Notes under the pieces: model-generated | Told to the model about the DNA's origin: nothing | The model's input: only the letters and a program-made list of their open reading frames with translations | Database searches by the model: none | Position numbers and translations under genes: made by a program | From: a virus | Reading direction: 5' to 3' (one strand) | Virus record (IMG/VR): IMGVR_UViG_3300033148_008025 | Location: 57,455-121,454 of that record | DNA: 64,000 bases | Shown: positions 2,497 to 52,190 of the stretch, piece by piece | How positions within the stretch are numbered: position 1 is the stretch's first letter | Layout of the letters: every line of letters begins with the position of its first letter

Positions 2497-5415
2497 ATGT
2501 CTCGCCAAGGAACAGGTTCTAGAGTTGAGCTCCGTATGTACATGGAGGGGATTCTTGTCGAGAACGGACTAGCAAACGTTAGCGTTAGTGGCGACATCGG
2601 AATGCCAGCATCAGCTCAGCTCGAGCTGGTTCCAACCAACACGATAAAACACATCCTTCCAGGAACATGGATTCATGTTTTTGTGACAGATCCGTGGGAG
2701 GTTAATCCAACAGGCAATCTCGATGACTTCAAGTTGCTGTTCGAAGGTGTTGTCTCGGCTAAGGGATTCACGAAAACCGACGATGGTAGAAACTTCACAG
2801 TGCAATGCATCGCACCAGAAGTATTCTGGACCGAAGCTCGTCAGTTCTGGGTAAACCTTGCGGCTGGAAGCAGTCTCGTTGACCAAATCGTAGTGCAAAC
2901 GTCGGGAGGCAGTGGTCGCTTCGGAATGATTGGGGGGAACGCCAAGTTTGGCTACATGCAAAGCAAGCTCAAAAAAATCGAGGATGGAAGCGAGGAGCGC
3001 TTCATGGACACACTCGTGTCAGTTCTCGATGATATCGGAGGAGTCAACCCGTATTACACCAACGCAAAAAACAGAATAAGACTTACCGATCGTATTGTTA
3101 GGGGGGCCGCAGGAAAGACCGAGGAGCTGTTTCAAATATCGCTCTTCACCGACTTCCTAGAAGGCCTCGCTTCTCGAACTTCCGATCAGTCAAGCTTGCT
3201 CGAAGTGATCAACTCTCTGCTTGGTGCAATTCTCCATGAATGGGTTTCTGTTCCTGCCCCGCCATACATCAAATCTCAAGTCTTTGACCGGGACACGTTC
3301 GGAAATATCAAGCGTGGTAAAAGCACCGTAAGGAAAAATACGGGAGACGGAAAAAGAAAGAAGAAGGTCGACATCTACGACTTCAAGACTGCCCAGGACG
3401 ACATTATCGCGAGCATCATATTCAAGCCTCACATCTACACGCTATCCCCACCTACGTGCAACATCCTCTACCCCAACATGTATGATCAGATGTCATACAG
3501 CCACAACCACATGAATGAAACAACGAGGCTTCAGATGCAGCCGCAGTTGTTTTCCAGTGCTTTCAGGAAGATCTCGAAACACCTGAGGATCATGCGTCCG
3601 ACCGAACTGGAAATCTTCACCGGTCTCACTCGAGACAAGAAGGCTGGGACTAGAGGGAAACGGACACCTGATGCCAAGTACGCAGACGGAGCTGGCCAAG
3701 CTCCCGTGTTTCACGACTATGACTGGGCAACAAACGAGGAGCGAATCCGTGGAATCAAATACAACTTCATAAATCTCGCTCCGGCCCCGGGCACCCTGAC
3801 GATGACAAGTCAGGGAAAACGACAACCATCCGGAACAAGAAAAGGTGGTGCACCGAAGTACTTGCAGAACGTGGCAAGCTACGAGTACTACAAGTCAAAG
3901 TTTTCGGCCAGAGGCGCAACAGTGTCCGGCCCCTTGAACATTCGCCCCGTACCAGGGTTTTCAATCCTATTACTGGATGATTCCGCATCCCAGCAGAACA
4001 TCGTTGCATATCTTAGCGGGATTACTCATTCCATTAGCGCCGACGGGATGGCAACAACCCAGTACAGCATCAGCCTTCCAAGGCTGACCGACGAGGTGGA
4101 CTACAATCGCCCTAAGTTCAAGAAAAGCGCGACAGGTGAAAACGAAATCGATTTTGACCTATTCAGAGACGAGGAAGGCAGGTACGACTTTGCGAAGCTG
4201 TTTGACGGCGTCAATGAGCCGCCGATTCCTGAGTGGTTTGACGACGACTACAAAAACCTCCTCGACCTAGACGTGAGATATCGAGAGTGGTTTGGAACCA
4301 ATGTCGGGGTAACGCAGAACCTCTTATTTGTAGATCCGGAGCAGACGGAAAAGAATGCAATCGCAAATCAGGAGGCTGCAAGAGCAGTATACCTGGAGGA
4401 GAACGGCGTTGAGCCGGAACCAGGAGAGATACCCGACTATCCAAAATCCCTAAAAGACGACATTGTTCAATCAAACAACACGATCGGATTGAATGAGGCA
4501 GTTTTGGAACTAAACGAAAGATACACAAAGGCTCGCGGCAACGGCAGGGAGAAGGAAGAAGCTGGGGTACGAACGGCGAGAGCATTCACGAAAATCGACG
4601 AAGCGTTCAGATTCATCGGAGCTTCTCCGTTCGAATTGTCGGACCAAGCGATAGGCGAAAAGAGCAAGTCCGATCAAACCACCTTTGTGAAAAACCCGGC
4701 GTCGGAGAGGGTTATCAACTACAAGACGATGAGGCTAGACAGGTTCGTCGGAGACACTTCCCCAGGGTCTGGATATTCAGGTGTCCCAGAGGGAGAGTCC
4801 AAGGAAACAAACGATTCAAGCGGGAGCGGGGTTTCCGAGCGCATGTCTGGTGCTTTTTCAAAATTCGATACGATCGTGCACACCGGCGATAAGGCACTCA
4901 AGACAAAGGAGAGGGCTGATGCTGTAAAAGCAGAGAGTGCACCTTCATCAAGTCCGCGATATGACGGACGCCCCAGAATGTACGATTTTGAATTTCGTAT
5001 ATGGCAGGACTCAATCAAGGCTGCACAGGCAGCGGGGTTCACCATCGACGGTGAGAAGATTGCCGATTCTGCTGCCGTCGCAGACCACTATGTCAATGGA
5101 AGTAGTGGGACAATACGAGGTGCGACTGCCGAAGAGAAAGCTGCTGCTCGCGAGAGCAGGGTTGCAACAAACGCACAGAGGACTGCAGAGGAAAGCGATC
5201 GCATGTCCAAGGGGCGTCATCCTGTTCGACGAGTTCGTTCTAGGTGCCCAAACATGCCCCCCGCAAACCAGGCTCCCACCGGAGCCGGACTAGAGGAAGA
5301 GCTTGTCCTCCCGCTTCCTCAGCCGCTATCGGAAAAGCAGGTTATTAACATCAGAAGGTCTATCATCGACGCTTATCGAGACGAATTGGAGAGAACTCGT
5401 GGATTCACAGGATAG
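2497..5415 (+). CDS. Baseplate hub-like protein (gp27/gpD-like) with long C-terminal extension, 972 aa
   Basis: The N-terminal third (residues about 1-140) has the pattern of a gp27/gpD hub beta-barrel: a short polar start, VSVSGDIGMPASAQLEL, then FEGVVSAKGFTKTDDGRNFTVQC. A further barrel-like section appears around residues 480-550 (GPLNIRPVPGFSILLLDD, ITHSISADGMATTQYSISL). From about residue 550 the chain is charged and low-complexity, with Ser/Gly-rich segments at about 765-850. At 972 residues it is far longer than T4 gp27 (about 390), so the extension is unusual. In phages of this type the hub forms the ring that carries the spike. The 3' end overlaps the probable start of the sigma-factor gene by 17 bp. 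Confidence 0.7.
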   Translation: MSRQGTGSRVELRMYMEGILVENGLANVSVSGDIGMPASAQLELVPTNTIKHILPGTWIHVFVTDPWEVNPTGNLDDFKLLFEGVVSAKGFTKTDDGRNFTVQCIAPEVFWTEARQFWVNLAAGSSLVDQIVVQTSGGSGRFGMIGGNAKFGYMQSKLKKIEDGSEERFMDTLVSVLDDIGGVNPYYTNAKNRIRLTDRIVRGAAGKTEELFQISLFTDFLEGLASRTSDQSSLLEVINSLLGAILHEWVSVPAPPYIKSQVFDRDTFGNIKRGKSTVRKNTGDGKRKKKVDIYDFKTAQDDIIASIIFKPHIYTLSPPTCNILYPNMYDQMSYSHNHMNETTRLQMQPQLFSSAFRKISKHLRIMRPTELEIFTGLTRDKKAGTRGKRTPDAKYADGAGQAPVFHDYDWATNEERIRGIKYNFINLAPAPGTLTMTSQGKRQPSGTRKGGAPKYLQNVASYEYYKSKFSARGATVSGPLNIRPVPGFSILLLDDSASQQNIVAYLSGITHSISADGMATTQYSISLPRLTDEVDYNRPKFKKSATGENEIDFDLFRDEEGRYDFAKLFDGVNEPPIPEWFDDDYKNLLDLDVRYREWFGTNVGVTQNLLFVDPEQTEKNAIANQEAARAVYLEENGVEPEPGEIPDYPKSLKDDIVQSNNTIGLNEAVLELNERYTKARGNGREKEEAGVRTARAFTKIDEAFRFIGASPFELSDQAIGEKSKSDQTTFVKNPASERVINYKTMRLDRFVGDTSPGSGYSGVPEGESKETNDSSGSGVSERMSGAFSKFDTIVHTGDKALKTKERADAVKAESAPSSSPRYDGRPRMYDFEFRIWQDSIKAAQAAGFTIDGEKIADSAAVADHYVNGSSGTIRGATAEEKAAARESRVATNAQRTAEESDRMSKGRHPVRRVRSRCPNMPPANQAPTGAGLEEELVLPLPQPLSEKQVINIRRSIIDAYRDELERTRGFTG

Positions 5416-6232
5416 GCAGATTGGACTTGAAATAGAGGCTGAGCTGGAGGAGTGGCTTGACAAGGAAGCTGCTGCTCGAGGTATTGACCGAGAAGCTCTG
5501 CAGCAATCAGAGCTGGAGGCGTGGGAGCGTTGGAGTAAGGACCCCAACCAGCAAGACTTTGAGACGCTGTACCAGAGTCACCAGCCACTGTTCGAGACAA
5601 TAGGTGCTCGATACATGAAAAGCAGCAACCTTCCCACAGCTGCAATCAGATCTAGGATGACGCAGAACTACGTGAAGGCCCTCGAGGGATACGACCCAAC
5701 AAGAGGGGCGAAGCTATCGACGCATGTCATGAACACACTTCCGCATCACATTCCAAGATACATACAGAAGTATACAAACATTGGAAGAATTCCTGATGAC
5801 ATGGGTGGGATGATCGGACTACTCGAGGAGCGGAATGCTGCACTATCAGACCGCCTTGGACGATTGCCGACAAACGACGAGCTCGCTGATGACATGCTAA
5901 TGTCTGCGCGGGACTATTCCGATCAAAGGAAAAAACTCATAACACCAAAAAAGGTGGGGACGCTGAGAAGGTCTTTGCGGCTAGACTTTGTCGCAGAAGA
6001 GGCTGGCGGCGTTGCCCCAACGCATGGTGTCTCGAAGCTTGAGCAGCATGCAGTTTATTTGCATGGCTCATTGAATTCCGAGCAAAAACTAATTCTCGAA
6101 CATACCTACGAAGGGTTTGATAAGCCGATCATCCAGGACGTTGAACGACTGTCCAGGACGGTAAAGATGTCTCCTCAAAAGGTTCGTGCGATCAAGAAGC
6201 AAATCTGGAAAAAGATGGAACGGTACATGTAA
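5399..6232 (+). CDS. Sigma-70-family RNA polymerase sigma factor, phage-encoded, 277 aa
   Basis: Recognised from ordered sigma-70 regions. Residues about 53-138 resemble region 2, with DFETLYQSHQPLF, then ALEGYDPTRGAKLSTHVMNT and RYIQKYTNIGRIPDDM (the usual FDPxRGxKFSTYA and xRxP pattern). Residues about 143-168 match the region 3 start (LGRLPTNDELADDM). Residues about 223-277 resemble the region 4 helix-turn-helix (LNSEQKLILEHTYEG ... MSPQKVRAIKKQIWKKM). Start choice: GTG at 5399 has GGAGAG five bases upstream and overlaps the hub stop by 17 bp; an in-frame TTG at 5303 would overlap by 113 bp without a good ribosome site. The protein would direct promoter recognition; the natural partner is the fused polymerase at 30125-36346. 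Region 1.1 is absent. It sits between hub and baseplate genes, an unusual place for a regulator. Confidence 0.85.
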   Translation: MDSQDRQIGLEIEAELEEWLDKEAAARGIDREALQQSELEAWERWSKDPNQQDFETLYQSHQPLFETIGARYMKSSNLPTAAIRSRMTQNYVKALEGYDPTRGAKLSTHVMNTLPHHIPRYIQKYTNIGRIPDDMGGMIGLLEERNAALSDRLGRLPTNDELADDMLMSARDYSDQRKKLITPKKVGTLRRSLRLDFVAEEAGGVAPTHGVSKLEQHAVYLHGSLNSEQKLILEHTYEGFDKPIIQDVERLSRTVKMSPQKVRAIKKQIWKKMERYM

Positions 6233-6234
6233 CG

Positions 6235-8232
6235 ATGGCTGGCTCAGACGAAATAAAAGAAGCGATTGCCTGTCTCTCAAATGTCTATCCGCAGTATGTG
6301 TCAAAAACACTTGCAGATCTTACGGACCAAATTGAATCAGTAGTCCAGTCCTACACCGACCCTATGGCTGCGATCGATGATCTGAGCGTTGACTCTCTTG
6401 TTGAGAGCGTTGCCGAGTCGGCCAGCGCAGACACCTTTGGAAACCTTGAGGAGATTGCCACTGGACTACTTTCTCAATATGTAAAGAGAGATGCGTCTTC
6501 GTTTTCCGAATCTCTTCCGAAAGAGTTTTCGAACGTGACAAAAAAGGTTCAAGACATCAGGAACATGTCAGGCAGGGTGATTCAGACCGCATCTCAGATG
6601 TTGTCACTATTCCCAGACATGCCATACGTTGCTGCTCAGAAAATGTGTGAATCAATGATTCGCGTCATCGATATGAAGGTTTGCAACCTGCGGTGCCTGC
6701 GAAAGCATATCGTTCAGCTGACCAATTGCGTTTTAGTACTAGTGAATCACGTAGATGACTACCACGAGCAAACTCTGTACGAAATCACGCTTGCCTCAGA
6801 GGCCATCGACGAAGTGGAGACTGAGCTTGTAAAAAGCCAGAGACTGGACATCGACAACAACATCACCTTCGACTCACAAGCATTCGAGCGTGCTCGACAG
6901 GCTATGCTCAACGCCGTCTCCCACCTGACGCCAGAGCAAGATGGTGACAACATCCTCGCCGAGGCCGACCTGATGACTCCAGGCGGAATACAGACAACGC
7001 AGATCACAAAGTCCAACAGATCCCTCGTGACCATGGCGATCCCACAGCTTGTTAAGCTCATAGAAGTTGAATCCGCAGCAGTCAATTCTCAGATTTCGGT
7101 CATCAACTATCACGCCAATGCCCTCACAGCCGTGATCAACCAGTTTCGCATCGCAGGAAAAAGCAGTCGCGTTCAGACGATGCGAGCAAGGGCAATTACG
7201 GATATCAGAAACAAGGTTGCAAGGCTCGGATCGAGGATCGATGTTGCACTCACGAGAGGGTCGACCAGGACACTGGCGGAAGAAATGCTGTCATGGGCCT
7301 CCGGCGCCAAGACAATTGTAGCCGCAATGGATAGGGTGAAAACTCTTACCCTACAGGAAGGATCGATTGAGGGGATTGACAAGGCGTACGAACTCCAGGT
7401 GGCCCTAGAGAAGCTTCTCAACGGACTTATCTCAATCAGCGGAATAAGCTACCCCACTGCAGAGAACGGGATAGAGGACTCAACGGAGATCACTCACAGG
7501 GTTACAGCGCTTGCAAAAGGTGCCTTCAGGATTCTTGGAGATTTGGAAAACAACACAACAAGCGAAAACAGAATAGCCACCTTCCACTTGCTATCTCTCC
7601 AGACTGCCACGCTCCAGGTCAACACGATTGACGACTCGATCACTGTTGCGCTCGAGCAGCGAGCTCTCTGTGAGGAATTCGCCGCAATCAACCTGCAGGT
7701 TCGAGAACGATACGACGAACTGCTCGGGTCCATGCGACAGTTGGGCCTGGATAGAGCCGTAGACCTTCTCAGTGTTGGAAAGTTTGATGACTTCCTTTCG
7801 AGCGATCTCGATGACCTGTCGTACCTCGGTGTTGGCATTTCCTGTCTTACGCATGCGCTTGGAGCCGTCGACGACACGCAAACCCGCGGAGAACTGATTT
7901 CGATTAGAGATGAGATGATTTCCAGGCAAACAAACCAAGAGGTTGCTGCTGCCGACTCCGTAGATCAGGGGCGGGTCAGGATTTTAACTGATGTTAAATC
8001 CGAAGTTTCATCTATCCAAAAAAACGCAAAAGTCATCGAATCAATCCTCGCACAGCTTACGGGAACAGCCGACAAGCTCAATATCGACATTGACGTAGAT
8101 ATGGGGGGCACCCCAGCCTTCCTGGGCAACCTTGACTATCTGTCCGTTGGAGCAGGAGGCAGGCTCTCAGGCGGGCTTGAGGAGATATCAGAGTATGCTA
8201 ACGCCGGTGTCGTTAGCTGCAAGCCACTGTGA
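6235..8232 (+). CDS. Predicted baseplate-associated virion protein, 665 aa
   Basis: Starts 2 bp after the sigma-factor stop. The whole chain is predicted to be strongly alpha-helical, with long runs of Ser/Ala/Ile/Asp residues compatible with helical bundles or coiled coils and almost no Gly/Pro until the C-terminus (GGTPAFLGNLDYLSVGAGG, about 625-645). There is no catalytic motif or signal peptide. It lies between hub/sigma and gp25/J, which argues for a baseplate or tail role. It might also be an internal protein ejected with the DNA. No named family was recognised. Confidence 0.65.
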   Translation: MAGSDEIKEAIACLSNVYPQYVSKTLADLTDQIESVVQSYTDPMAAIDDLSVDSLVESVAESASADTFGNLEEIATGLLSQYVKRDASSFSESLPKEFSNVTKKVQDIRNMSGRVIQTASQMLSLFPDMPYVAAQKMCESMIRVIDMKVCNLRCLRKHIVQLTNCVLVLVNHVDDYHEQTLYEITLASEAIDEVETELVKSQRLDIDNNITFDSQAFERARQAMLNAVSHLTPEQDGDNILAEADLMTPGGIQTTQITKSNRSLVTMAIPQLVKLIEVESAAVNSQISVINYHANALTAVINQFRIAGKSSRVQTMRARAITDIRNKVARLGSRIDVALTRGSTRTLAEEMLSWASGAKTIVAAMDRVKTLTLQEGSIEGIDKAYELQVALEKLLNGLISISGISYPTAENGIEDSTEITHRVTALAKGAFRILGDLENNTTSENRIATFHLLSLQTATLQVNTIDDSITVALEQRALCEEFAAINLQVRERYDELLGSMRQLGLDRAVDLLSVGKFDDFLSSDLDDLSYLGVGISCLTHALGAVDDTQTRGELISIRDEMISRQTNQEVAAADSVDQGRVRILTDVKSEVSSIQKNAKVIESILAQLTGTADKLNIDIDVDMGGTPAFLGNLDYLSVGAGGRLSGGLEEISEYANAGVVSCKPL

Positions 8233-8250
8233 TAAGGTTTTCCAAGGACA

Positions 8251-8676
8251 ATGGCAGATCTGAAACTTCTTATCACTGACGAGGGTACGGGTCGATTGCG
8301 ACTCGGGATACCAAGTCCGCCAGAGTTTGTCGAAGGTATCGACCTGCTTGCTCAGATAGTAACACTTCGATATCTGAACAACGGTGGGAGGTCTATTTTT
8401 AACCCCGGAATGAATGGTGGCCTCAGGCTTTACATTGGTCAGAATTTTGACCCAGAAGACCCCTCCGAGCTGTTTGCAGATCTGAGGCTGATAACCAGTC
8501 GGATCGAACAATCAATAAAAGAAGAGCAGGTTGGCCTCAACCGGTCACCATCTGAACGGCTTCAGTCTCTAGACTTCCTGGACATCATCCCCGACGACAC
8601 GGAGCCTGAGATCGAAATCATTGTCGCAGTCGTAAACGAAGAACAACAACAGCAGCGAGCAATCGTTCCGGTGTAA
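8251..8676 (+). CDS. gp25-like baseplate wedge protein, 141 aa
   Basis: Small protein of the size expected for T4 gp25 / P2 gpW (about 130 aa), located directly before the baseplate J gene as in most myoviruses. Visible features are an N-terminal strand, the central NPGMNGGLRLYIGQNFDP segment and the helix LFADLRLITSRIEQSIKEEQ, followed by a C-terminal strand with acidic then Gln-rich residues (EIIVAVVNEEQQQQ). gp25-like proteins join wedge components to the sheath-proximal baseplate. AAGGACA lies upstream of the ATG. The next gene follows after 2 bp. Confidence 0.75.
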   Translation: MADLKLLITDEGTGRLRLGIPSPPEFVEGIDLLAQIVTLRYLNNGGRSIFNPGMNGGLRLYIGQNFDPEDPSELFADLRLITSRIEQSIKEEQVGLNRSPSERLQSLDFLDIIPDDTEPEIEIIVAVVNEEQQQQRAIVPV

Positions 8677-8678
8677 CT

Positions 8679-10742
8679 ATGGCACTCCCAGTAAAAGAAT
8701 TCATCATTGAAAGGCTTCTTGAGTTTGACTCATCCTTTGACACGGGGTCCGGTGTCCCGACAACCGGGCTACTCATTGAGCCGCTTTCTGTGATTTTGCA
8801 ACCAGTTATCGATGAGCTATCTGTAGTTCAGGCGAGTTCCTCGATCCTCACAATCCTTGAGTCTTCTGATCCCGACTCTTTCCCGGAAGACATTGTTGAC
8901 GGACTGGCATCAAATGCATTTGTCGACAGAAACCCAGGGGAGATTGGCTCCGATGTCATGCGAATTCGTTTTTTTGAGCCGCAGCAATTTGAGGCGCAAC
9001 AAGGGGTACTCATCTTCCGCGGCCCAAGCGGTCAACGGTTTACAAATTCCGAATCTTTCGTAGTGACCTCATCGGAGATGAGCCTGAACAAAGACGGGAG
9101 TCTCTACTTTGCAGACATTCCGATTGTCTCCCTCGAGGAGGGGGAGGACTTCAATGTCAGTTCTGGTGCAATCACTTCCATGGAGGCCGAACCAAGTGGA
9201 GTTGCAAACGTAACAAACCTGTTTGGAATATTAGACGGAAGAGATAGGGAAACAAACACGGAATTAATCGATCGTATCAAGGTCGCAGTAACCGTTAGGG
9301 CACTTGTTACCGGGCGCGGAATCATCGTCACCCTCACCGAGAATTTCTCCACAATTGAAGAGATTACTCCCGTAGGATTTGGCGACCCTGAGATGATGAG
9401 GGACATTGTTTACAACGTTCACATCGGTGGGAATTCCGACGTCTACGTGAAAACATCGAATTTCACATCAGGGTTCAAAGATTTTTTCGGAATAGAAGTT
9501 GATACTTCTAGGCAGAAATCCGGTTACGGAACAATCTCTCTCCCGCTCGACTCCGTTGGATACTTCCTTGGGAACTCCGGAATTGACAGGACGAACATCG
9601 CGCCAACTGTAAGGGCTATCGATGGGCTTGTTGCCTACGCAGAAACCACAGACTACATACTAGACGACACATCTGGAACTATTTTCAGAGTTCCAGCCGG
9701 GTCGATTTTTCATCGTGAGGGAATATCTGGAGTTGTAACCGACACCAAGACATTGACTCAGGTCGGTGAGTTTGCAAGTGCACGGAGAGGTATGATCTTG
9801 ACTATTGATACCCCGGCAACGGTGTCGGGGAGATACACGGTCAGGGAGTCTCCAGATGCTGACACTGTCATCATCTACGGGGAGTTCTCAGTGGGATCGG
9901 AGACTGGCGTAAACTGGAGTCTTGATGACAACCTTACCGTGTCCTACGAGTACAATCCTATCTCTATCGACATAGCTGAAGCTGCAAGGTCTGATGACCG
10001 TGAAATATTCACCATTACAGATATCCCGCTTATGTATGTTGAATCCGTAGAAGTACTTGATCCGCTGTCCGGAGAGCAGACAGGCGTAACCCTGGAACCG
10101 CTGGGTGGGTTTGGTGCAGGCGGGTTTGGAGTTGGGGGATTCGGGGTTGGCAGCGGAGCGGATTTCAAGCTTGTTGTTGTAGACCCAACCCTTCGCCACT
10201 CGTCGGAGGAAAGCAACTACATCGAGTTTGACGCTAGCTATGCTGGCTATGCACTTAGGTTGAACTACTTTTATGCTTCTGCGATTCCGCCGATCCAGGC
10301 ATTCATGGATGACAGGAACAATCAGAGTCAAACAGCATCGCTACTTGCTCGCCACCACATCCCAGTGTTTGTTGATACTCAGAAGACGATCAGCTACGAC
10401 ATCTCCGCATCGTCCGAAGCTACTGCGCTGAGCACGGAAGAGATGGTCTCGCTCATCAGCGACTATATTAACGACATCGACCAGGACGGAGACCTTGAAA
10501 TCTCCGACATCATTGATGTCATGTATGACAGCGGTGCAACCCGGGTTGACCTCGGTGCCATACAGGAAATGCGCGGGGAAATTCACAACCATGATGGCTC
10601 AATTGAATACACACTTCCTGACAGCACGGGAAGTATGGTTATTCCAGATAACGACATCGAAGACCCAACTGACAAACCACTGTCCCCGCGCATTGCTAGA
10701 TTTCGTTCTAGAACAATATCCCTTCAAAGGAACGTTGTATGA
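8679..10742 (+). CDS. Baseplate J-like wedge protein (gp6-like), 687 aa
   Basis: The J/gp6 pattern is clear: a helical N-terminus (FIIERLLEFDSSFDT, then PLSVILQPVIDELSVVQ), a region where the residue property changes to beta (GVLIFRGPSGQRFT), and the typical block GRDRETNTELIDRIKVAVTVR with a following conserved ITPVGFGDPEMMRDIVYNVHIGG. J proteins form the dimeric wedges of the baseplate periphery. The chain is longer than P2 gpJ (about 300 aa) and close to T4 gp6 (660 aa). A Gly-rich tandem (GGFGAGGFGVGGFGVG, about 473-488) interrupts the C-terminal half and is probably a flexible loop. The stop overlaps the next start as ATGA. Confidence 0.85.
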   Translation: MALPVKEFIIERLLEFDSSFDTGSGVPTTGLLIEPLSVILQPVIDELSVVQASSSILTILESSDPDSFPEDIVDGLASNAFVDRNPGEIGSDVMRIRFFEPQQFEAQQGVLIFRGPSGQRFTNSESFVVTSSEMSLNKDGSLYFADIPIVSLEEGEDFNVSSGAITSMEAEPSGVANVTNLFGILDGRDRETNTELIDRIKVAVTVRALVTGRGIIVTLTENFSTIEEITPVGFGDPEMMRDIVYNVHIGGNSDVYVKTSNFTSGFKDFFGIEVDTSRQKSGYGTISLPLDSVGYFLGNSGIDRTNIAPTVRAIDGLVAYAETTDYILDDTSGTIFRVPAGSIFHREGISGVVTDTKTLTQVGEFASARRGMILTIDTPATVSGRYTVRESPDADTVIIYGEFSVGSETGVNWSLDDNLTVSYEYNPISIDIAEAARSDDREIFTITDIPLMYVESVEVLDPLSGEQTGVTLEPLGGFGAGGFGVGGFGVGSGADFKLVVVDPTLRHSSEESNYIEFDASYAGYALRLNYFYASAIPPIQAFMDDRNNQSQTASLLARHHIPVFVDTQKTISYDISASSEATALSTEEMVSLISDYINDIDQDGDLEISDIIDVMYDSGATRVDLGAIQEMRGEIHNHDGSIEYTLPDSTGSMVIPDNDIEDPTDKPLSPRIARFRSRTISLQRNVV

Positions 10743-11041
10743 ATATGGTTAGCTTTGTTGATGAACTGATAAGGGTTGGAGTCAGCAAGGCTCTAGCAAA
10801 ACATGCTTCCTTCGTTGGAGCAGAGCCGCACGAAGGGCTCGTTGGGAGCAGTGCGTATGCTGAAGACAACGTTCTTGTTCCAAGCGACGTAGCAACTAGG
10901 ATTCCTAGAACAGCAAGCCTTCCATCAAGCATTGCAGTTGGTAGGTTGGGTGAAATTAGTCCCGCAAATGATCCGATAGATAACAGAACAGAGGGGGGAC
11001 GACGTGAGTGTCTCTTCTGCCTTCCTTTGGCGATTTCTTGA
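10739..11041 (+). CDS. Small virion protein with SFVDELIRVG motif, 100 aa
   Basis: The ATG overlaps the J stop (ATGA) and follows AAAGGAA, so it is translationally coupled. The N-terminus MNMVSFVDELIRVGVSKA is a variant of the FADELTK-type motif found at the start of several head-module proteins (53144, 57735, 50849). The rest is short, polar and without a recognisable fold. The 3' end overlaps the next gene by 38 bp. Placement between two baseplate genes is the odd point, since the other copies lie mainly in the head module. Confidence 0.6.
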   Translation: MNMVSFVDELIRVGVSKALAKHASFVGAEPHEGLVGSSAYAEDNVLVPSDVATRIPRTASLPSSIAVGRLGEISPANDPIDNRTEGGRRECLFCLPLAIS

Positions 11042-13406
11042 CGATGTATGGGACCTTCTTCCAACCAAAGACAGGAGCCTGTTTGAAAGCTACTGGTCCG
11101 GACTAATCCAGGTTGCATCAGACTTGGAGCAGAAAACCATTGAGGCCGGGCTTTCAAACGAGATTTCCACTGTTCCCGTGTTCCTTACGGATAGATGGAA
11201 TCGATACTCGATGGATGAGGAGAACACTGACACGTTTGACGCGTCTGACAGTCTTACACTTCTGGGGAGCACCCTATCTAGGATGTCAAAGGAAGCTGGT
11301 TTTTACGACACACTGAAAGTTTCACTTCCATCAGGGCAGATTGCACACGAAGAAACAATGCAATTCTTCGATCAGTCTGTCCGGCATCTTCGATACGGGA
11401 AGATTGTGAAAGGAACGATCTCCATCGTCTCTGGCGATTTCGAATATACCCAAAACAGGGACTATGCAATTAACGTTGCCGATGGGTCTATCCAGACCAT
11501 CAACTCGGGACGGATTCCGATTGATGACATCGTCACAATCCGATACCTCCACGAGGAATACACTCGAGGGCTTGACTACGAAATTGACGAGCTTAACTCT
11601 GGAGTCTACCGAACAGCCAGTACGGTCATTCCTGACGGAAAGGTAGTGACAGCAAGCTACTCATACAACAGCACAGCTACGCTTCCGTTGGAAGGTTCTT
11701 CCGCTTCCATCAAGGGCGCTGAACTCACGGACCTGTCGAAGGACTTCAGTACACTTCTTCCAAGCAGAACTCTTACCATTTCCAGTGGGCCAAACTCCGG
11801 AGAGTACTCGGTCAATTCAGTTCTCAGTACCAACAAGATACAGATTTCAACGTCGTTTCCCGTAGACCAAGAAACGGATGTAGTCTATTCGATCAACGCA
11901 TTTCCGTATGGCCTGAAAATTGACAAGCAAGTCGTATCTATTCCACTCATTCAAGACAGAGTAGATCTCCCGTCATCCGTGATGGTAGAGGGCATTGATT
12001 ACGTTTTGCGCGACGGAATTTTTTCGTGCAGAACCGCATTCAGAATAAGTGAACTTGGATCTGAGAGTACTCGGACCAGGCAAATGTGGGCCGAGGTCAC
12101 AAAGGTCGACAAGGAAACGCCGTATAGGAACTTCGGTGTACTCATAGACTTCTACCGAAAAAACTCAGACAGCTACAAGCTGGCACTGCAGGGGCTCTGG
12201 TACACGTTCTGGACCGGTTCCACGCCTGGAAACCTCGAGAGAGGGTTGCACATCCTCCTGGGCCTACCATTTGCCAGGAAAGCGGGGACGGTTACCAGGG
12301 TGGACTCAACGGCTGGGATTATCGAGATCACAGATGGGCGAGGTCAGATCATTACCTATACGATTCCGTCTGAGTTGGAGGCCGAGGTCTCGCGCGGCGA
12401 CGAAGTTTTCAGGTTCCAGCAACTAACAACTGGGGTTGAAATAGTAGACAGGAACAACTATCCAGGATTTGTTTCAAGCCATATCGGACGAGCAGGAATC
12501 CAGCGTTTTTTAACTGACAACGCAACCAGGGGGAGCGGCAGCTCTGACGAGACAAGAGCTTTGACGCTGCTTGAAAACCACCTACTGCTTCCCCAGGTAC
12601 TCGCCTCCGCAGTAACGGAAAGGGTTAACGTTTCTGAACTCACAACGTTCCTGGACAACATGAAACCCAGCTGGACTGAGTATGTGTTTTCATTCGCAGT
12701 TGAAGAGGATGAGTCTCTTCTCGCAGAAGAGGACCTCGGCCCTGTTGAGCCGGCGCTCAACCTGACAACGACAATTTCCAACAATGAGTGGAACCAGTCC
12801 TACGGGAATGGCAATTTCTCTGTTGAAAGCTCAACGGGGAAAACAATTGGAATTGGCAGCATCGCAGCCGGCAACTTTAGCGATATCTCTGGCAACTTTA
12901 TCGCAAACAATGTCAAGCCTGGGGATTTCCTTCAGATTTTCAACCAAACATTCAAGGGCTATCACCGAGTAATCGAAGTTTTCAGTCTCAACCTGCTGTC
13001 GATTGACATACCAGATTCCGACCTGGCTGAGGAGTTCTCACTTTCGTATGTCATCATCCCGAAGGAGCGTGCCGGTCTAAACCATGATTCGGTGTGCCTT
13101 GCCAGGGAGAACATAATCATGAATGGGTCAGCTTATTCAACCCCGGCTACACTGAATACAAAAACAGACATAGACTTTTCTGAGACATCTATCGAGGATG
13201 ACGATGTTCTCTCATTACTTCTGGTCGACATCGGGATCACTGGTGACGAGGTCCAGGTCATAACGGCTGCAGATGTCATCAGCCAGGAGTTTTCCGTCGG
13301 GACACCCCCTGCGGCACCTATCTCAAGAGATCACCAACTTGCCTCAACAGTGCTGAAGAGAACAGATAATAGCGGCCCAACCGTCACAGATGCGTTCGCT
13401 ATCTAA
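11004..13406 (+). CDS. Predicted baseplate/tail-fibre-attachment protein, 800 aa
   Basis: GTG start preceded by GAGGGGGG, inside the end of the previous gene. The N-terminus (residues about 1-60) is helical (FLWRFLDDVWDLLPTKDRS). The rest is mostly beta with repeated small modules, for example the strand-turn units around 240-300 (SRTLTISSGPNSGEYSVNSV) and 625-690 (AGNFSDISGNFIANNVKPGDFLQIF). A segment near 410-430 (LERGLHILLGLPFARKAGT) recurs in tail proteins that follow J genes. Most likely a large baseplate periphery or fibre-base protein. No enzymatic motif is visible. Confidence 0.65.
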   Translation: MSVSSAFLWRFLDDVWDLLPTKDRSLFESYWSGLIQVASDLEQKTIEAGLSNEISTVPVFLTDRWNRYSMDEENTDTFDASDSLTLLGSTLSRMSKEAGFYDTLKVSLPSGQIAHEETMQFFDQSVRHLRYGKIVKGTISIVSGDFEYTQNRDYAINVADGSIQTINSGRIPIDDIVTIRYLHEEYTRGLDYEIDELNSGVYRTASTVIPDGKVVTASYSYNSTATLPLEGSSASIKGAELTDLSKDFSTLLPSRTLTISSGPNSGEYSVNSVLSTNKIQISTSFPVDQETDVVYSINAFPYGLKIDKQVVSIPLIQDRVDLPSSVMVEGIDYVLRDGIFSCRTAFRISELGSESTRTRQMWAEVTKVDKETPYRNFGVLIDFYRKNSDSYKLALQGLWYTFWTGSTPGNLERGLHILLGLPFARKAGTVTRVDSTAGIIEITDGRGQIITYTIPSELEAEVSRGDEVFRFQQLTTGVEIVDRNNYPGFVSSHIGRAGIQRFLTDNATRGSGSSDETRALTLLENHLLLPQVLASAVTERVNVSELTTFLDNMKPSWTEYVFSFAVEEDESLLAEEDLGPVEPALNLTTTISNNEWNQSYGNGNFSVESSTGKTIGIGSIAAGNFSDISGNFIANNVKPGDFLQIFNQTFKGYHRVIEVFSLNLLSIDIPDSDLAEEFSLSYVIIPKERAGLNHDSVCLARENIIMNGSAYSTPATLNTKTDIDFSETSIEDDDVLSLLLVDIGITGDEVQVITAADVISQEFSVGTPPAAPISRDHQLASTVLKRTDNSGPTVTDAFAI

Positions 13407-30093: not shown

Positions 30094-30102
30094 CCCTTAT
30101 GC
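30094..30102. repeat. CCTTATGCC box, copy 1
   Basis: Nine-base sequence identical at 38153-38161 and 51412-51420; a related TTATGCC is at 61931-61937. All lie at gene boundaries. Here it is 22 bp before the ATG of the RNA polymerase gene. Confidence 0.4.
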
Positions 30103-30124
30103 CAAGACAATGTAGGTGCCGACT

Positions 30125-33100
30125 ATGGAAAGCTTCGATTACCAGGACCAGTTCAACAGGGTTAAGAAGGATGTTATTGCATCCGTGACCAAGGCTCTCG
30201 ATATCCAATCTGCTGGTGCAAACCGCAAAATGGTTGTCCATAAAGTATGGATCGATGACAACAAAAACCCAGCAGACTGGGAGTCTCAAAAGCAGGCCGT
30301 ACGAAAAGATAAGACTTGGGGAGTACCTGTCTATGCAACCGTTGATCTCATTGACCGAAAGACCGGAGCGGTTCTTTCCTCTGAGGAAAGGATCAAGGTA
30401 GCCACACTTCCGAGGCCCACGAACCTCGGGAGTTTCATCATCGACGGAAAACACTATCAGGTTCAGTCTCAGCTTCGCCGCAAACCTGGTGTCTACACCG
30501 TTCAGAAGCGAAACAAACAACTCAAGACTGAGGTGAACATCCAGAAGCGCCCATTTGATATCGATATGGATCCGGAAACTCAGATCTTCAAAATGAAGAA
30601 AGCGGGTTCCGACCAGGCGTTTGCCTTGTATCCGATTCTCTCTAGGCTTGGAATCTCAGATGTGGCAATGGCTCGAAGATGGGGCAAAGACGTTCTCGAG
30701 GCAAACAAATCAATCAAGCCGAAGAACGCCGAGGTCTCAGTAAGAAAGGCTGCGTTGTTCTTTACTGGAAGCAACTTTGATTCTGCCGAGGACGCAGCAA
30801 ATGCAATAAAGGAGTACTTTCAGGATACCGAAATAAAGCCAGAGGTGACCAAGTCAACCCTCGGAAAAGCGTATACGAAGGTTACGCCCGACCTCTTGCT
30901 AAGAGGATCAGAAGAGCTTCTTCGGGCAAACAGGGGAGAGCGCGAAGCGGATGACAGGCAAGCTCTTGAGTTCAAGAAAGTTCTCGGAATGAGCGACCTG
31001 ATGAGAGAGAGAATGCTCCAAAGCGATGGGCAACTAGCTGGTGCCATGTCCAAAGTAAGAGGCGGAATCTCCAGGAAAATCAACAACCGAAAGAAACCTG
31101 TCTCGGAAATCTCCAAACTCATAAAGACGAACGAGTTCACGCCGTTCTTCAACTCTTTTTTTAGCCAATCTTCGCTATCAAACATCACAGACCAAACTAA
31201 TCCGATCACCATGCTGAACGGAACCGCCAAGATCACCGTACTCGGGGAAGGGGGGGTAATGGATGCCACCAGAGTTCGAGGCGAAGAGAGAGCTGTACAC
31301 CCATCTCAGATGGGATTTATAGATCCGATCCATACGCCCGACTCTGGAAACATTGGACTGGTAATGAACCTTCCACTTGGAGTCACCAAGAATGGGGAGA
31401 ATCTACAAACAAAGGTGATAGATCCGATAACTAAAAAAATCAGATCGATTACCCCGAGTGAAGCAAGAAACATGGTCGTAGCTTTCCCGGATCAGTATTC
31501 AAAGAAGACTGGAAAGTTCCTGGGAGACAAAGTCAGAGCATTTGTGAATGGGCAATTTGAGAACGTGTCGCCAGACAGGGTTGATGTCGTTCTTGCTAGC
31601 CCAAAGCAAGCATTCTCAATTGCATCAAATACCATCCCGTTCCTTCCTGCGGCACAGGGCGTTAGAGCGCAGATGGCAACCAAGATGCTTGAGCAGGCAA
31701 TTCCTCTCTCGGAAAGAGAAGCTCCTTTGGTCCAGGTTGGACTTGGTAGAAGCACTATCGAGAAAAGCATAGGAGAGGGGTTCTCTGTCCAGGCGCTGGA
31801 CGACGGAATCATAGAGAAAGTCGAAGACGGCAAGATCACGATAAAGACCAAGGATGGAAAGGTGGAGCAAAAACTCTACACGAATATCCCGCTAAACAAA
31901 AAAGCGTTTCTGACGTCAACCTCGACAGTCAAAGAGGGGGATGCCGTCAAAAAGGGAGACGTTATCGCTGACTCGAATTTCACGAAAGATGGTCAGCTTG
32001 CACTTGGAACAAACCTTCGAGCAGCCTACATCCCATACAAGGGATACAACTTCGAAGATGGAATTGTAATCACTGAGAGCGCGGCAAAAAAACTTACCAG
32101 CGAGCACATGAACGAGTTTGCATCATCCATAGAAAAAGGAATGGAGGTCTCACTTAAAGACTACATGGCATGGAAGGGTGGGGGGCTCGACCTCAGCCAG
32201 CGACGAAAACTTGACAAGGATGGGGTCATCAAAATTGGCGAAACTGTTCACAAGGGCGATGCACTTTGGGTCGGAACAAGGGAGAATAAGTATGACCCAG
32301 ACTATATCGCAGCCAAGAAAATGAATCCCAACCAAGATCCTAAGAAGGCCTACAGGGAGGAGTGGACAAAGGATGGGTTAGGGGAAGTTGTCGACGTAGT
32401 CAAAAGCAACGGTAAGATCAAGGTTTACGTGAAGTCTAAGGAGGCTGCGGTCATAGGTGATAAGCTCACAAATCGTCACGGCGGAAAAGGAATTGTAACC
32501 AAAATTATCCCGGACGGAGAAGCACCTTATACAGCAGACGGAAGAGCTGTCGATATCCTGCTCAACCCTCACGGCGTCGTGAGCAGAATCAATCCTTCCC
32601 AGATCCTCGAAACAGCAGCAGCCAAAATTGCCGACCTCGAAGGCAAGCCGTATGTTGTCGAAAACTTTTCCGGCGAAAATTACACGGAGTCTGTAACGAA
32701 AGCTGTCAAGAAGGCAGGCATCTCAGATACTGAAACCCTGTATGACCCGCACACAAAGAAAGCACTCGGTGATGTTCTTGTTGGCCCCCAGTACACCCTG
32801 AAGCTTTCAAAGCAGGCAACGTCTCAGTTCTCTGCACGCTCTGAGGGGAAGTACGATGCAGATCTTGCTCCGCTCAAGGGTGGAGAAGATGGTGCAAAAG
32901 CCCTCGACATGTTGACGTTCTACTCGATGCTTTCGCATGGCGCTCGTTCAAACATTAGGGAGATGGCAACATACAAAGCAACCGAGAACAAAGAGTTCTG
33001 GCGATGGGTCGAGAGAGGGGCCTCGTCCGGAATGATTACGCCTCCGCCAGAACCAACTCTTGCATACAAGAAGTTCGAAGCCTACATGAAGGGCGCCGGT

Positions 33101-36100
33101 GTCAACATGGAACGACGTGGGTCAAAGATGGTGCTTGGGCCAATGACCGACGAGATGACAGACAAGATCAGTAATGGGAAAGTTCGAGATGCAACATTCC
33201 TTCGAGCGAAAGATCTGAAGTACGAGCGCGGCGGACTGATGGATCCAAACATATTCGGCCAAGGCGACAAGTGGGGACACATCGAACTTGCCGAATCCAT
33301 TCCAAATCCAGTCTTTGAAAAACCAATCAAAGTACTCACCGGCATAGATGACAGAACATTCAAGGCAGTGGTCAAAGGCGAAAGATTCTTAGACCCTAAA
33401 ACCAATGAGTGGAATGAAAAGAAAGGGCTTACTGGTGGCGAAGCCATCTCTCATTTACTGAAGCAGGTTGACGTAGATAAAGAAATTGCCATCTGGACAG
33501 ACAAAGCAAAAGGAGCGGCCTACAAAAAAAGGAAGGACGGGACTCGAACGGAGGACGAACTGAACACTGCCAATAAAAGGCTTCGCTATCTTCATGCCCT
33601 CAAGAAACTAAACATGTCCCCGGACAAGGCTTACATCCAAAAGAAAATTCCAGTTGTCCCAACGCAGTTTAGGAAGATCATCGAAATGGAGGGAGGCAAC
33701 CTCTCCAACGCCGGACTCAACTCTCTGTACCGAGATGTTGGTTTGATTAGCGACCAGCTCAAGTGGCAGAAAACCGTCGACTACATGCCCGAGTCCGTAA
33801 AGGCGGAGCTTAGGGAGAATCTGTACGGAAGTGTGAAGGCCGTAGCTGGACTCGGAGAGCAGGTGAGGCGAGGAGGAAGTCAGAAAGCTGACAAGCGTCC
33901 AAGGGGCATCATCGAACAACTAAAAGGAAAGAAAGCAAAAGAAGGGTTCTTTCAGCGGAAGGTTTTGCGCAGAACGCAGAACCTCGTCGGGAGAGGAACG
34001 ATCATTCCAGATCCGAAGCTCGGGGTTGACGAGGTCGGCCTCCCGAAAGAAATGTCCTGGACACTGTTCGAGAAGTTTGTAACTCGACGCCTAGTCAATA
34101 GTGGGTACAAACCGAATGATGCAATCGAGGCAGTAAACAATCGAACCCCTGCAGCACTATCTGCCCTGCAAGCGGAGATGGAAAGCAGGCCGGTAATGCT
34201 CAACAGGGCACCGTCACTCCATAAGTTCTCTATCCAATCGTTCAAACCAAGAATGGTCGATGGAAAAGCGATCAAGATCCCTCCACTCATTGTCGGAGGC
34301 TTCAACGCCGACTTCGATGGAGACGCAATGACTGTGCACGTTCCAGTACTCAGCGACTCAGTGGCCGAGGCTAAGAAGATGCTCCCATCTAGGAACCTGT
34401 ACAGTCCCGGAACTGGCGACATCATGATCAAACCCCAGAATGAAGCCGCCCTAGGGCTGTATCAGATGTCAATCGATCCAAAGCTCAAGGGGAAGATCTT
34501 AGAAGAACTTCCCGAGAAGACCAGAGCCAAATTCGAAAACCGTCCACTCGATAAGAAGGGGCTTGGAGATCTGATGAAGAGCCTCGCAATCGAAAGTCCG
34601 GATGGGCATGGTGCGGTTGTCGACAAGCTCAAGCTTATGGGTGACGACCACACATACAAGACTGGATTCACAGTCAGCCTGAAAGACTTGTCCCCGGTTC
34701 TTCCTGAGAGGAATGCAATATTCGCAAGAACGAAAAAAGACCTAGCGGGAATTGATACTAAAACCAGGAAAGGAAGAGAGGAAGCATCTGCTTTAATTTC
34801 CGCCGCAGACAAAGAACTGGAAGCCGTCTTAGCCAGTCGCCTCGATGAGCAAGGAAACAGTTTTCGACTAATGGTGAGATCTGGCGCTCGAGGGAACATG
34901 CAGCAGCTCAAGCAGATCCTATCTGCTCCGTTTGCCGTTCCAGACCATAGGGGGCAAGTGCTGGCAGAACCGATTACAACATCCTTTGCCGAAGGGCTGC
35001 CATTCTCGGATTACTGGAACACGCTATATGGGGCGAGGGCTGTTGCAACGGATAAGCAACTCCAAACCCAATTGCCGGGGGCATTCAACAAAGACATCAT
35101 GGCCTCTTCCGTTACCAACGTGATCTCCGGCGCGGATTGTGGGGTTAATCGAGGAGTGAAGATTTCACTCAAGAGTAAAATCGATGACGCAGAAGATCGT
35201 TACCTGGCCAAGGACATAAGTGTTGGCGGAACAGTTGTTGCCAGAGCGGGAACGCTTATGAGTACTGGACTGCTCAACACGCTGCGAGACCGAAAAGTCG
35301 ACAACGTGGAAGTTCGCTCTCCACTCACCTGTAATAAGCCGAAGGGTACATGCGCAAAATGCTTTGGACTCAACGAGAGTGGAAATCTATCTCAGATTGG
35401 GGACAACATTGGAGCTACCGCCGGCCAGGCTCTGTCTGAACCATTGACCCAGATGACACTGAGAACCTTCCACCAGGGAGGTGTTGCTGGAGGGCGAGGT
35501 GTTGTGAGCGGATACGACAAAATCGACAAGCTCTTTAAGATGCCAAAGATCAAAAGAGGAAAAGCCACCCTTGCCAAAAGTGATGGAGTCATTGAAAGCG
35601 TAAAAAATGCACCTGGTCGAACAGGGAAAAACATCAAAATCAGTGGCTATAGAAAAACTCATTTTGTTGAAAACGATCTGTGGAACAGCAACAAAGCTCG
35701 CGTTGGGAAGAATGTTTTCAAGGGGGACATCCTCTCCGACGGACTTGTTCAGCCACAGGAACTCGTCGAATTAAAAGGAATGCAGAGTGCACAAGAATAC
35801 CTTGTCGATGAGATTCAAGATGCCTACGGATCTCAGGGAGTGAAGCTGAAAAGAAAGACTGTAGAAACAGTAATCAGGGCAGTTGCGAACACCACAAAGA
35901 TCCACGACGCAGGCGACAGCAACTTCCTCATCGGCGATGTTGCACCATGGACGGTTGTGGAGGATTACAACCGGAGATCTCTAGGTAAAAAAGGACTCGA
36001 TGAGATTATCGGACTTGCCCTCAAAGAGGACGTTCCTGGCATCAGAAAGAATACGATTATCTCCGAGAAAATTCGAAGCACGCTGGAGCGCATGGGCAAA

Positions 36101-36346
36101 TCGGAAGTTGAGGTGGGACCGCGTCCAATCGGGCACGAGCCGTTCCTGAAGGGGATTGAGCAGATTCCAATGTTGCGCAAAGACTGGATGAGCCAGATGG
36201 GATACCGGAACATAGAAAAGGCGATCACTGAGGGTGCTGCTACTCTTTCAGAGTCCGACATCCACGGGTATGCGCCGGTCCCAGCATTTGCCTACGGAGC
36301 CGAATTTGGGCTACCTGGCGGAGGAAAAGAGGAGGGAAGTTACTAA
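30125..36346 (+). CDS. Single-chain RNA polymerase: fused beta and beta' subunits, 2073 aa
   Basis: Multisubunit-type DNA-dependent RNA polymerase in one polypeptide (about 228 kDa). Beta part: GSFIIDGKHYQVQSQLRRKP (about 102-121), Rif-pocket region (345-380), GYNFEDGIVITE (about 640-652) and GDKLTNRHGGKG (778-789) with the following LLNPHGVVSRINPSQILE. Beta' part begins near residue 1010: KVRDATFLRAKDLKYERGG, then NIFGQGDKWGHIELAE, LVGRGTII, the catalytic NADFDGDAM (1394-1402; D1396, D1398, D1400), bridge-helix region GARAVATDKQLQTQ, the second zinc site C1672, C1736, C1743, C1746, and trigger-loop QMTLRTFHQGG. The beta' N-terminal zinc ribbon is absent: six residues stand where bacteria have about 45. 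Start: ATG 30125 with AGGTG upstream; GTG 30116 is less likely. No alpha or omega is seen. Probable partner: the sigma factor at 5399. Confidence 0.95.
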   Translation: MESFDYQDQFNRVKKDVIASVTKALDIQSAGANRKMVVHKVWIDDNKNPADWESQKQAVRKDKTWGVPVYATVDLIDRKTGAVLSSEERIKVATLPRPTNLGSFIIDGKHYQVQSQLRRKPGVYTVQKRNKQLKTEVNIQKRPFDIDMDPETQIFKMKKAGSDQAFALYPILSRLGISDVAMARRWGKDVLEANKSIKPKNAEVSVRKAALFFTGSNFDSAEDAANAIKEYFQDTEIKPEVTKSTLGKAYTKVTPDLLLRGSEELLRANRGEREADDRQALEFKKVLGMSDLMRERMLQSDGQLAGAMSKVRGGISRKINNRKKPVSEISKLIKTNEFTPFFNSFFSQSSLSNITDQTNPITMLNGTAKITVLGEGGVMDATRVRGEERAVHPSQMGFIDPIHTPDSGNIGLVMNLPLGVTKNGENLQTKVIDPITKKIRSITPSEARNMVVAFPDQYSKKTGKFLGDKVRAFVNGQFENVSPDRVDVVLASPKQAFSIASNTIPFLPAAQGVRAQMATKMLEQAIPLSEREAPLVQVGLGRSTIEKSIGEGFSVQALDDGIIEKVEDGKITIKTKDGKVEQKLYTNIPLNKKAFLTSTSTVKEGDAVKKGDVIADSNFTKDGQLALGTNLRAAYIPYKGYNFEDGIVITESAAKKLTSEHMNEFASSIEKGMEVSLKDYMAWKGGGLDLSQRRKLDKDGVIKIGETVHKGDALWVGTRENKYDPDYIAAKKMNPNQDPKKAYREEWTKDGLGEVVDVVKSNGKIKVYVKSKEAAVIGDKLTNRHGGKGIVTKIIPDGEAPYTADGRAVDILLNPHGVVSRINPSQILETAAAKIADLEGKPYVVENFSGENYTESVTKAVKKAGISDTETLYDPHTKKALGDVLVGPQYTLKLSKQATSQFSARSEGKYDADLAPLKGGEDGAKALDMLTFYSMLSHGARSNIREMATYKATENKEFWRWVERGASSGMITPPPEPTLAYKKFEAYMKGAGVNMERRGSKMVLGPMTDEMTDKISNGKVRDATFLRAKDLKYERGGLMDPNIFGQGDKWGHIELAESIPNPVFEKPIKVLTGIDDRTFKAVVKGERFLDPKTNEWNEKKGLTGGEAISHLLKQVDVDKEIAIWTDKAKGAAYKKRKDGTRTEDELNTANKRLRYLHALKKLNMSPDKAYIQKKIPVVPTQFRKIIEMEGGNLSNAGLNSLYRDVGLISDQLKWQKTVDYMPESVKAELRENLYGSVKAVAGLGEQVRRGGSQKADKRPRGIIEQLKGKKAKEGFFQRKVLRRTQNLVGRGTIIPDPKLGVDEVGLPKEMSWTLFEKFVTRRLVNSGYKPNDAIEAVNNRTPAALSALQAEMESRPVMLNRAPSLHKFSIQSFKPRMVDGKAIKIPPLIVGGFNADFDGDAMTVHVPVLSDSVAEAKKMLPSRNLYSPGTGDIMIKPQNEAALGLYQMSIDPKLKGKILEELPEKTRAKFENRPLDKKGLGDLMKSLAIESPDGHGAVVDKLKLMGDDHTYKTGFTVSLKDLSPVLPERNAIFARTKKDLAGIDTKTRKGREEASALISAADKELEAVLASRLDEQGNSFRLMVRSGARGNMQQLKQILSAPFAVPDHRGQVLAEPITTSFAEGLPFSDYWNTLYGARAVATDKQLQTQLPGAFNKDIMASSVTNVISGADCGVNRGVKISLKSKIDDAEDRYLAKDISVGGTVVARAGTLMSTGLLNTLRDRKVDNVEVRSPLTCNKPKGTCAKCFGLNESGNLSQIGDNIGATAGQALSEPLTQMTLRTFHQGGVAGGRGVVSGYDKIDKLFKMPKIKRGKATLAKSDGVIESVKNAPGRTGKNIKISGYRKTHFVENDLWNSNKARVGKNVFKGDILSDGLVQPQELVELKGMQSAQEYLVDEIQDAYGSQGVKLKRKTVETVIRAVANTTKIHDAGDSNFLIGDVAPWTVVEDYNRRSLGKKGLDEIIGLALKEDVPGIRKNTIISEKIRSTLERMGKSEVEVGPRPIGHEPFLKGIEQIPMLRKDWMSQMGYRNIEKAITEGAATLSESDIHGYAPVPAFAYGAEFGLPGGGKEEGSY

Positions 36347-38101: not shown

Positions 38102-38196
38102 TGTTCTGCATTTCTTTCCCCGGACAATCGACCGGATTTTCTTGTTCATTAACCTTATGCCACTGAACGAGACGTGCTTAAGGTACTATCCAACAC
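38102..38196. promoter_or_regulatory. Divergent regulatory region between SSB operon and spike operon
   Basis: Contains CCTTATGCC (38153-38161) and, on the minus strand, GATAGTACCTTAAGCAC (about 38192-38176). The TACCTT core resembles the ATACCTTCA boxes at 22073 and 52153, and ATAGTACC also occurs in the divergent region before the polymerase gene. No classical -35/-10 pair is clear. Confidence 0.4.
38153..38161. repeat. CCTTATGCC box, copy 2
   Basis: Identical to copies at 30094-30102 and 51412-51420. Here 35 bp before the GTG start of the spike gene and within the leader region of the SSB gene on the other strand. Confidence 0.4.
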
Positions 38197-51339: not shown

Positions 51340-51411
51340 CTTGGACTCCTTTGTTATGGCTAAGAAGGTTGGGGTGTCGAACCCCATACCCGTCCTTTGC
51401 CTTCTTGAAGT

Positions 51412-51420
51412 CCTTATGCC
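51412..51420. repeat. CCTTATGCC box, copy 3
   Basis: Identical to copies at 30094 and 38153. It overlaps the stop of the gene at 51414-52097 and lies 72 bp upstream of the start at 51339 on the minus strand. Confidence 0.4.
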
Positions 51421-52097: not shown

Positions 52098-52190
52098 ACA
52101 AGTTTCTCCTTCAGGTGTATTTCCGCTCGCTTGACCTGATTTTTGATAGCTTATACCTTCAAGTAGAACACTTGGAAGCAGGGAACCAAC
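52098..52190. promoter_or_regulatory. Divergent regulatory region before the head module
   Basis: Contains TTGACC (52131-52136), a 16-base spacer and ATACCTTCAAGTA (52153-52165), nearly the same box as at 22073-22085. It would drive the plus-strand head module from 52191. Confidence 0.45.

Follow-up and report, generated by a model that had tools for sequence, protein, structure and literature searches.

A predicted sigma-70-family factor encoded between phage baseplate genes, a candidate partner of a virus-encoded single-chain RNA polymerase

The 64,000-nucleotide (nt) stretch analyzed here (the window; positions 57,455 to 121,454 of the IMG/VR virus record IMGVR_UViG_3300033148_008025) encodes a protein of 277 amino acids (aa) which, judged by profiles and structural models, is a genuine member of the sigma-70 family with regions 2, 3 and 4. 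Its gene lies between a hub-type gene and a baseplate wedge gene, and the same phage encodes a single-chain beta-beta' RNA polymerase. The source record is an incomplete genome of 121 kb, labeled G000 in the comparisons below. We consider it probable that the protein is a packaged sigma-70 factor dedicated to the phage polymerase, initiating early transcription at the element G[GT][CT]ATAAG. This reading builds on the identity of the sigma factor, the position of its gene, its co-occurrence with the polymerase, a conserved docking site on the polymerase and the strand bias of the promoter-like motif.

The NCBIfam models TIGR02997 (E=7.5e-11) and RpoD_Cterm (1.2e-9) matched the protein, as did PHROG 351, ‘RNA polymerase sigma factor’ (6e-9), and a phmmer search against the proteins of solved structures reached SigA at 6.7e-7 over residues 57-273, spanning regions 2-4. 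A profile of 12 family members reached SigA at 8e-18, with sigma factors filling the match list. Pfam alone detected region 3 only, below threshold (4.9e-4, 20.6 bits versus a curated cut-off of 25.3), although Sigma70_r3 is present in all 12 family members, at best with 5.6e-10. Sigma70_r2 was likewise sub-threshold for the single sequence, and the Pfam region-2 search across the 121-kb record was empty, indicating that Pfam is too strict here and not that the sigma assignment is false. The original prediction of a sigma-70 factor thus held with the long models, PHROG, phmmer and the family profile, and fell short with Pfam region 2. In the AlphaFold model (mean predicted local distance difference test score 73), both ends are well predicted. 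Residues 33-129, the region 2 also covered by TIGR02997 and RpoD_Cterm, fit solved sigma-2 domains at 2.0-2.4 Å over 92-95 residues, while residues 206-277 fit solved sigma region 4 at 1.9 Å over 65-66 residues; the phmmer alignment extends to region 4.2, and region 4 is conserved in the relatives. The root-mean-square deviations over the whole model are large, as expected from flexible domain positions. The SigA alignment, the model folds and the relatives all agree with the order of regions 2, 3 and 4 first read from the sequence. The host-type -10-recognition residues W433/W434, Q437 and T440 (E. coli numbering) are replaced by N, T, H and P, and for this reason the protein is not classed as an RpoD-type (group-1) factor; its family membership is unaffected, since alternative members of the sigma-70 family vary at these positions.

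The open reading frame (ORF) starts with a GTG codon, overlaps the end of the hub ORF (5415) by 17 bp and is preceded by the ribosome-binding site GGAGA at 5388-5392, confirming the coordinates, the overlap and the good ribosome site of the original prediction. The choice of start is further supported by the relatives L178 (‘VDSQ..’) and L189 (‘MDSP..’), which begin at the equivalent position. Scanning viral contigs with the window sigma as the only query sequence yielded zero relatives, and a four-sequence profile found 15 in IMG/VR. The closest annotated relatives are Gp10 of Salmonella phage Arash and gene 0011 of Vibrio phage D69 (with D148 and D181), and it is also in these phages that the fused polymerase has its best long matches. 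Similar to the window phage, Arash and D69 carry the sigma gene after a hub-type cell wall hydrolase and before baseplate genes. Iterated comparison of the neighbors gave the order 374-aa gene, hub, sigma, X, 141-aa gene, Baseplate_J wedge and 800-aa gene, seen in Arash, D69, L014, L019, L020, L023, L189, L195 and others, with one small gene sometimes intervening between hub and sigma. Phage sigma factors had been thought to be rarely located between hub and wedge genes, but in this lineage, which includes Arash, D69 and many IMG/VR contigs, the placement is the rule. The order loosens in some more distant records, and L180, L190 and L192 still keep both sigma and polymerase. The embedded position, the presence of the Arash homologue in the virion according to the published virion data discussed below, and the changed promoter-contact residues would also suit a former sigma factor that now serves as a baseplate or ejected protein with no role in transcription. 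We regard such an exaptation as very improbable, as regions 2, 3 and 4 are all kept across very divergent members, and as sigma and polymerase persist together in the three records where the context loosens.

The clamp helices of beta' are the docking place of sigma region 2. They are conserved in the window polymerase, making it plausible that the predicted sigma factor binds the core and directs promoter-specific initiation. According to the alignment, the window enzyme has lost the beta' N-terminal zinc ribbon and has a shorter flap. The RpoC N-terminal zinc ribbon is missing from every phage polymerase aligned, and the second set of zinc cysteines is mostly retained. Unsplit chains of more than 1950 aa make up 72 of the 81 polymerases compared (80 relatives and the window enzyme), and the Arash and D69 enzymes have a break in beta' close to where cyanobacterial rpoC1 and rpoC2 are split. 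No alpha subunit (PF01193) was found in the eight records searched for it. Sigma and polymerase occur in the same genomes: the polymerase is present in 12 of 12 sigma-bearing records of at least 100 kb and in 13 of 14 of at least 69 kb. The one that lacks it, G015, is a 73-kb fragment and shares its sigma with G001, a record in which the polymerase is present. Conversely, among ten records of at least 150 kb that were selected by their polymerase, nine carry the sigma. Jumbo phages with a recognizable sigma factor are usually devoid of a polymerase of their own and are thought to use the host core (PMC7598289), and the window sigma might, as other phage sigma factors do, bind the host core polymerase. 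This seems to us quite improbable, given that the family is found almost only with phage polymerase, that the two proteins are packaged together according to the Arash virion data, and that the phage polymerase retains the sigma-docking clamp. The two-part phage holoenzyme of the original prediction is well, though indirectly, supported by the pairing in the same phages, the gene order, the co-packaging in Arash and the conserved docking site.

Mass spectrometry of Arash virions has been published (PMC10585845), and in the protein data given there the polymerase is the most-detected protein, with 128 unique peptides for Gp206 (beta) and 40 for Gp216 (beta'), while the sigma factor Gp10 is represented by 24 unique peptides and 100% coverage. 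Of the 116 proteins on the list we chose 38, comprising core virion parts and clear metabolic enzymes, and normalized their unique peptides to protein length. Gp10 came out at the top of the 38 with 10.3 unique peptides per 100 aa, compared with 9.8 for the capsid, 8.4 for beta and 6.6 for beta', whereas DNA primase (0.2), ligase and two helicases spanned 0.2-0.7, a difference that argues against simple carry-over of the sigma factor. The polymerase is thus a particle protein in Arash, as reported in PMC10585845; for the uncultured window phage, we infer packaging from this relative. The occurrence of both proteins in the Arash particle, as listed, suggests that the transcription machinery of such phages is injected ready-made. 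The Arash authors noted the virion sigma, and the passages of their paper that deal with it are silent on its conserved placement, on a promoter element and on the absence of the second sigma (PMC10585845).

That second Arash sigma factor, Gp196 (TIGR02997, 2e-22), does not appear on the virion protein list of the same source (PMC10585845). Homologues were found in ten other records at E<1e-20, and a Gp196-type factor was not found in the incomplete 121-kb record of the window phage. As a protein unlisted in the virion, Gp196 could serve later genes. The original prediction had the window sigma made as a late protein. Read as a late-gene factor, it would turn the phage polymerase towards the structural genes, and its presence in virions would only reflect tight binding to the packaged polymerase. 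The gene does lie in the structural-gene strand, and the structural genes of Arash have an upstream element of their own, a TAAAATA sequence resembling T4-type late promoters and read by eye ~30-40 nt 5' of gp185, gp188, gp212, gp216, gp218 and gp241. Such a late role is nevertheless unlikely in our view, as the Gp196-like factor of Arash and ten other records, being off the virion list, is the better late candidate, and as the peptide density of packaged Gp10, equal to that of core virion proteins, points to a function during entry. Late synthesis agrees with the strand of the gene, but since the late-made sigma would be packaged with the polymerase, its action most likely falls at the start of the next infection.

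A candidate target for such early action was found on the strand opposite the structural genes. In an unbiased count of 7-mers outside ORFs, GGTATAA was the most early-strand-biased word in Arash (28:1) and in G029 (26:0), GGCATAA ranked near the top in the window phage (8:0), and TTATAAG led in D69 (19:0). The Arash element is followed by a loose TAAaGTGTAA and lies just 5' of many minus-strand start codons. Across six genomes, GGYATAAG had 67 early-strand sites outside ORF cores (a count that holds a few Arash sites twice, from overlapping pieces) versus 4.7 ± 3.9 for ~400 permuted motifs, and the sole permutation to come close itself contains GGTATAAG; the 7-mer counts and the per-genome ratios are corrected for the overlap. 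Expressed as sites on the strand opposite the sigma gene to sites on its own strand, G[GT][CT]ATAAG gave 12:0 in the window phage, 34:2 in Arash, 28:7 in D69, 40:1 in G029, 18:7 in G011, 3:0 in G024, 13:1 in G052, 27:10 in G050 and 9:1 in G057, so that the bias is seen in 9 of 10 sigma-bearing phages. No clear -35 element was seen with the promoter-like element. Host sigma-70 strongly favors T at the last -10 position, and the absence of this T from GGCATAAG makes a host promoter less likely. The link between the window sigma and the motif is suggestive, and it is by this association that we infer which sigma reads it.

Within the 121-kb record, GGYATAAG occurs at 12 sites, every one on the minus strand. 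The palindromic look of GGCATAAGG/CCTTATGCC in this record was dismissed as one set of minus-strand sites viewed from both strands, and the structural-strand 7-mer list was left unused, being mostly a mirror image of the early-strand list.

The combined results suggest a model in which the sigma factor would be synthesized late, alongside the structural proteins, and packaged together with the phage polymerase. On injection, the two would assemble into an alpha-less holoenzyme that would use the -10-type element (GGCATAAG in this phage) to begin transcribing early genes, on the strand that faces the structural ones, and the same core may be redirected later by a second sigma. Extended to an alpha-less viral sigma cascade, with an injected beta-beta' core and its own sigma-70 factor, a phage-specific -10 element shared by distant phages and later a switch to structural genes by a second, non-packaged sigma, the model becomes more tentative, a possibility that we would not yet place on a par with early initiation by the packaged factor. 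Several observations weigh against a packaged, early-acting sigma. The Arash virion list runs to 116 proteins with metabolic enzymes among them, and its authors raise carry-over in their account of it (PMC10585845). The canonical -10-reading residues W433, W434 and Q437 of sigma-70 are among those replaced in the window sigma, the window polymerase shows no evident counterpart of the beta' contact residues Q406/E407, and the model of the sigma is of moderate confidence (predicted template modeling score 0.45). G046 has the polymerase and no sigma detectable even with a larger profile, and its motif ratio is 8:6. G040 carries the sigma without the motif bias (2:6), and G033 keeps the bias (8:0) though its 138 kb yielded no sigma, larger profile included. 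The motif could be read by another sigma or by the host polymerase.

Table 1. Positions of the features discussed, in the window and in related records.
Feature	Record	Position	Strand	Basis or remark
Hub-type structural gene, 972 aa	window	2497..5415	+	Arash gp8 homologue (‘cell wall hydrolase, structural protein’)
Ribosome-binding site GGAGA	window	5388..5392	+	sequence; 6 nt ahead of GTG
Sigma-70-family factor, 277 aa	window	5399..6232	+	open frame and homology; GTG start, TAA stop at 6232
Sigma region 2, residues 33-129	window	5495..5785	+	model superposition on solved sigma-2 domains
Family signature YDPTRGAKLSTHVMN, region 2.3/2.4	window	5690..5734	+	host sigma-70 tryptophan pair replaced
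Sigma region 3, residues 147-174	window	5837..5920	+	Pfam Sigma70_r3
Sigma region 4 helix-turn-helix, residues 212-277	window	6032..6229	+	model, alignment
665-aa gene immediately 3' of sigma	window	6235..8232	+	kept mainly in closest relatives
Conserved baseplate-region gene, 141 aa	window	8251..8676	+	Arash gp12 homologue
Baseplate wedge	window	8679..10742	+	Baseplate_J
Promoter-like element GGCATAAG	window	30096..30103	-	before minus-strand gene 29469-30002
Single-chain beta-beta' RNA polymerase, 2076 aa	window	30116..36346	+	rpoC_TIGR 2.5e-151, rpoB 2.5e-102
Segment of the beta' clamp helices, where sigma-2 docks (limits approximate)	window	33665..33886	+	alignment to E. coli RpoC 248-320
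Catalytic motif NADFDGD (codon limits approximate)	window	34304..34324	+	alignment
Promoter-like element GGCATAAG	window	38154..38161	-	before minus-strand gene 37679-38149
Promoter-like element GGCATAAG	window	51413..51420	-	before minus-strand gene 50917-51387
GGTATAAG match	window	52150..52157	-	start region of minus-strand ORF 51414-52205; weaker case
Second sigma-70 factor, Arash gp196	L200	45656-46693
Second sigma-70 factor in relative	G054	7856-8530
Second sigma-70 factor in relative	G011	10687-11127
Second sigma-70 factor in relative	G008	146393-146782

Some of the related polymerase genes appear to be interrupted. Probable inteins were seen in L102 (nt 6440-7660, 407 aa, in the trigger-loop region) and in L142 (nt 5081-6502, 474 aa, inserted inside NADFDGD), both with Cys first and His-Asn last, at or beside the junction. 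In L001/G001 (IMGVR_UViG_3300030044_000016), the polymerase matches are broken up into frames of 502, 1679 and 787 aa, which points to additional splits or insertions. Two short unannotated phage records from human fecal samples, MT836236 and MT838503, encode polymerases 27-31% identical to that of the window.

The closest known system is that of Arash, whose Gp10 (OQ632216) and Gp206/Gp216 represent a homologous sigma in the same hydrolase-wedge placement and the same beta-beta' polymerase, at ~21-24% identity. In Arash, a split within beta' gives polymerase chains of 1525 and 606 aa, as opposed to the single chain of the window phage, and Arash has its second sigma Gp196, where none was found in the 121-kb record. 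The record holds tailed-phage hallmarks (portal, terminase and baseplate wedge) and a polymerase with both beta and beta' recognizable by standard profiles, as in the tailed mReC phages (Weinheimer and Aylward 2020, PMC7481178), and the main text of that paper mentions neither sigma factor nor promoter. In the incomplete record we found one polymerase set, a single chain, unlike the two sets, of four or more polypeptides each, in jumbo phages of the phiKZ and AR9 type. AR9 gp226 and phiKZ gp68 are dedicated promoter-specificity subunits on viral alpha-less polymerases, the role proposed here for the window sigma. Both are subunits of non-virion enzymes, and their likeness to sigma is mainly structural (PMC9209446, PMC13282480), their sequence similarity to sigma factors being vanishing, whereas the window sigma is a sequence-recognizable sigma-70 with region 4, the helix-turn-helix region that AR9 gp226 lacks (PMC9209446), and has a relative on the Arash virion list. 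The packaged polymerases of N4 and phiKZ similarly serve early genes, but the N4 enzyme is a single-subunit polymerase and the phiKZ virion polymerase consists of several chains; to our knowledge, no sigma factor is known for the latter. T4 gp55 and the SPO1-type sigma factors, also phage-encoded members of the sigma family, act on the host core polymerase, whereas the window phage has a polymerase of its own. Reviews describe polymerase-encoding jumbo phages as lacking sigma homologues and sigma-bearing ones as probably using the host core (PMC7598289, PMC13282480). The lineage described here has a recognizable sigma and its own polymerase together, in a largely fixed arrangement, and in a cultured member the pair is found in the particle. 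The lineage would provide a minimal alpha-less holoenzyme of bacterial type and possibly a viral core that switches between sigma factors, and with Arash, which can be studied in a laboratory Salmonella strain, the question of how these viruses gained independence from host transcription is open to direct testing.

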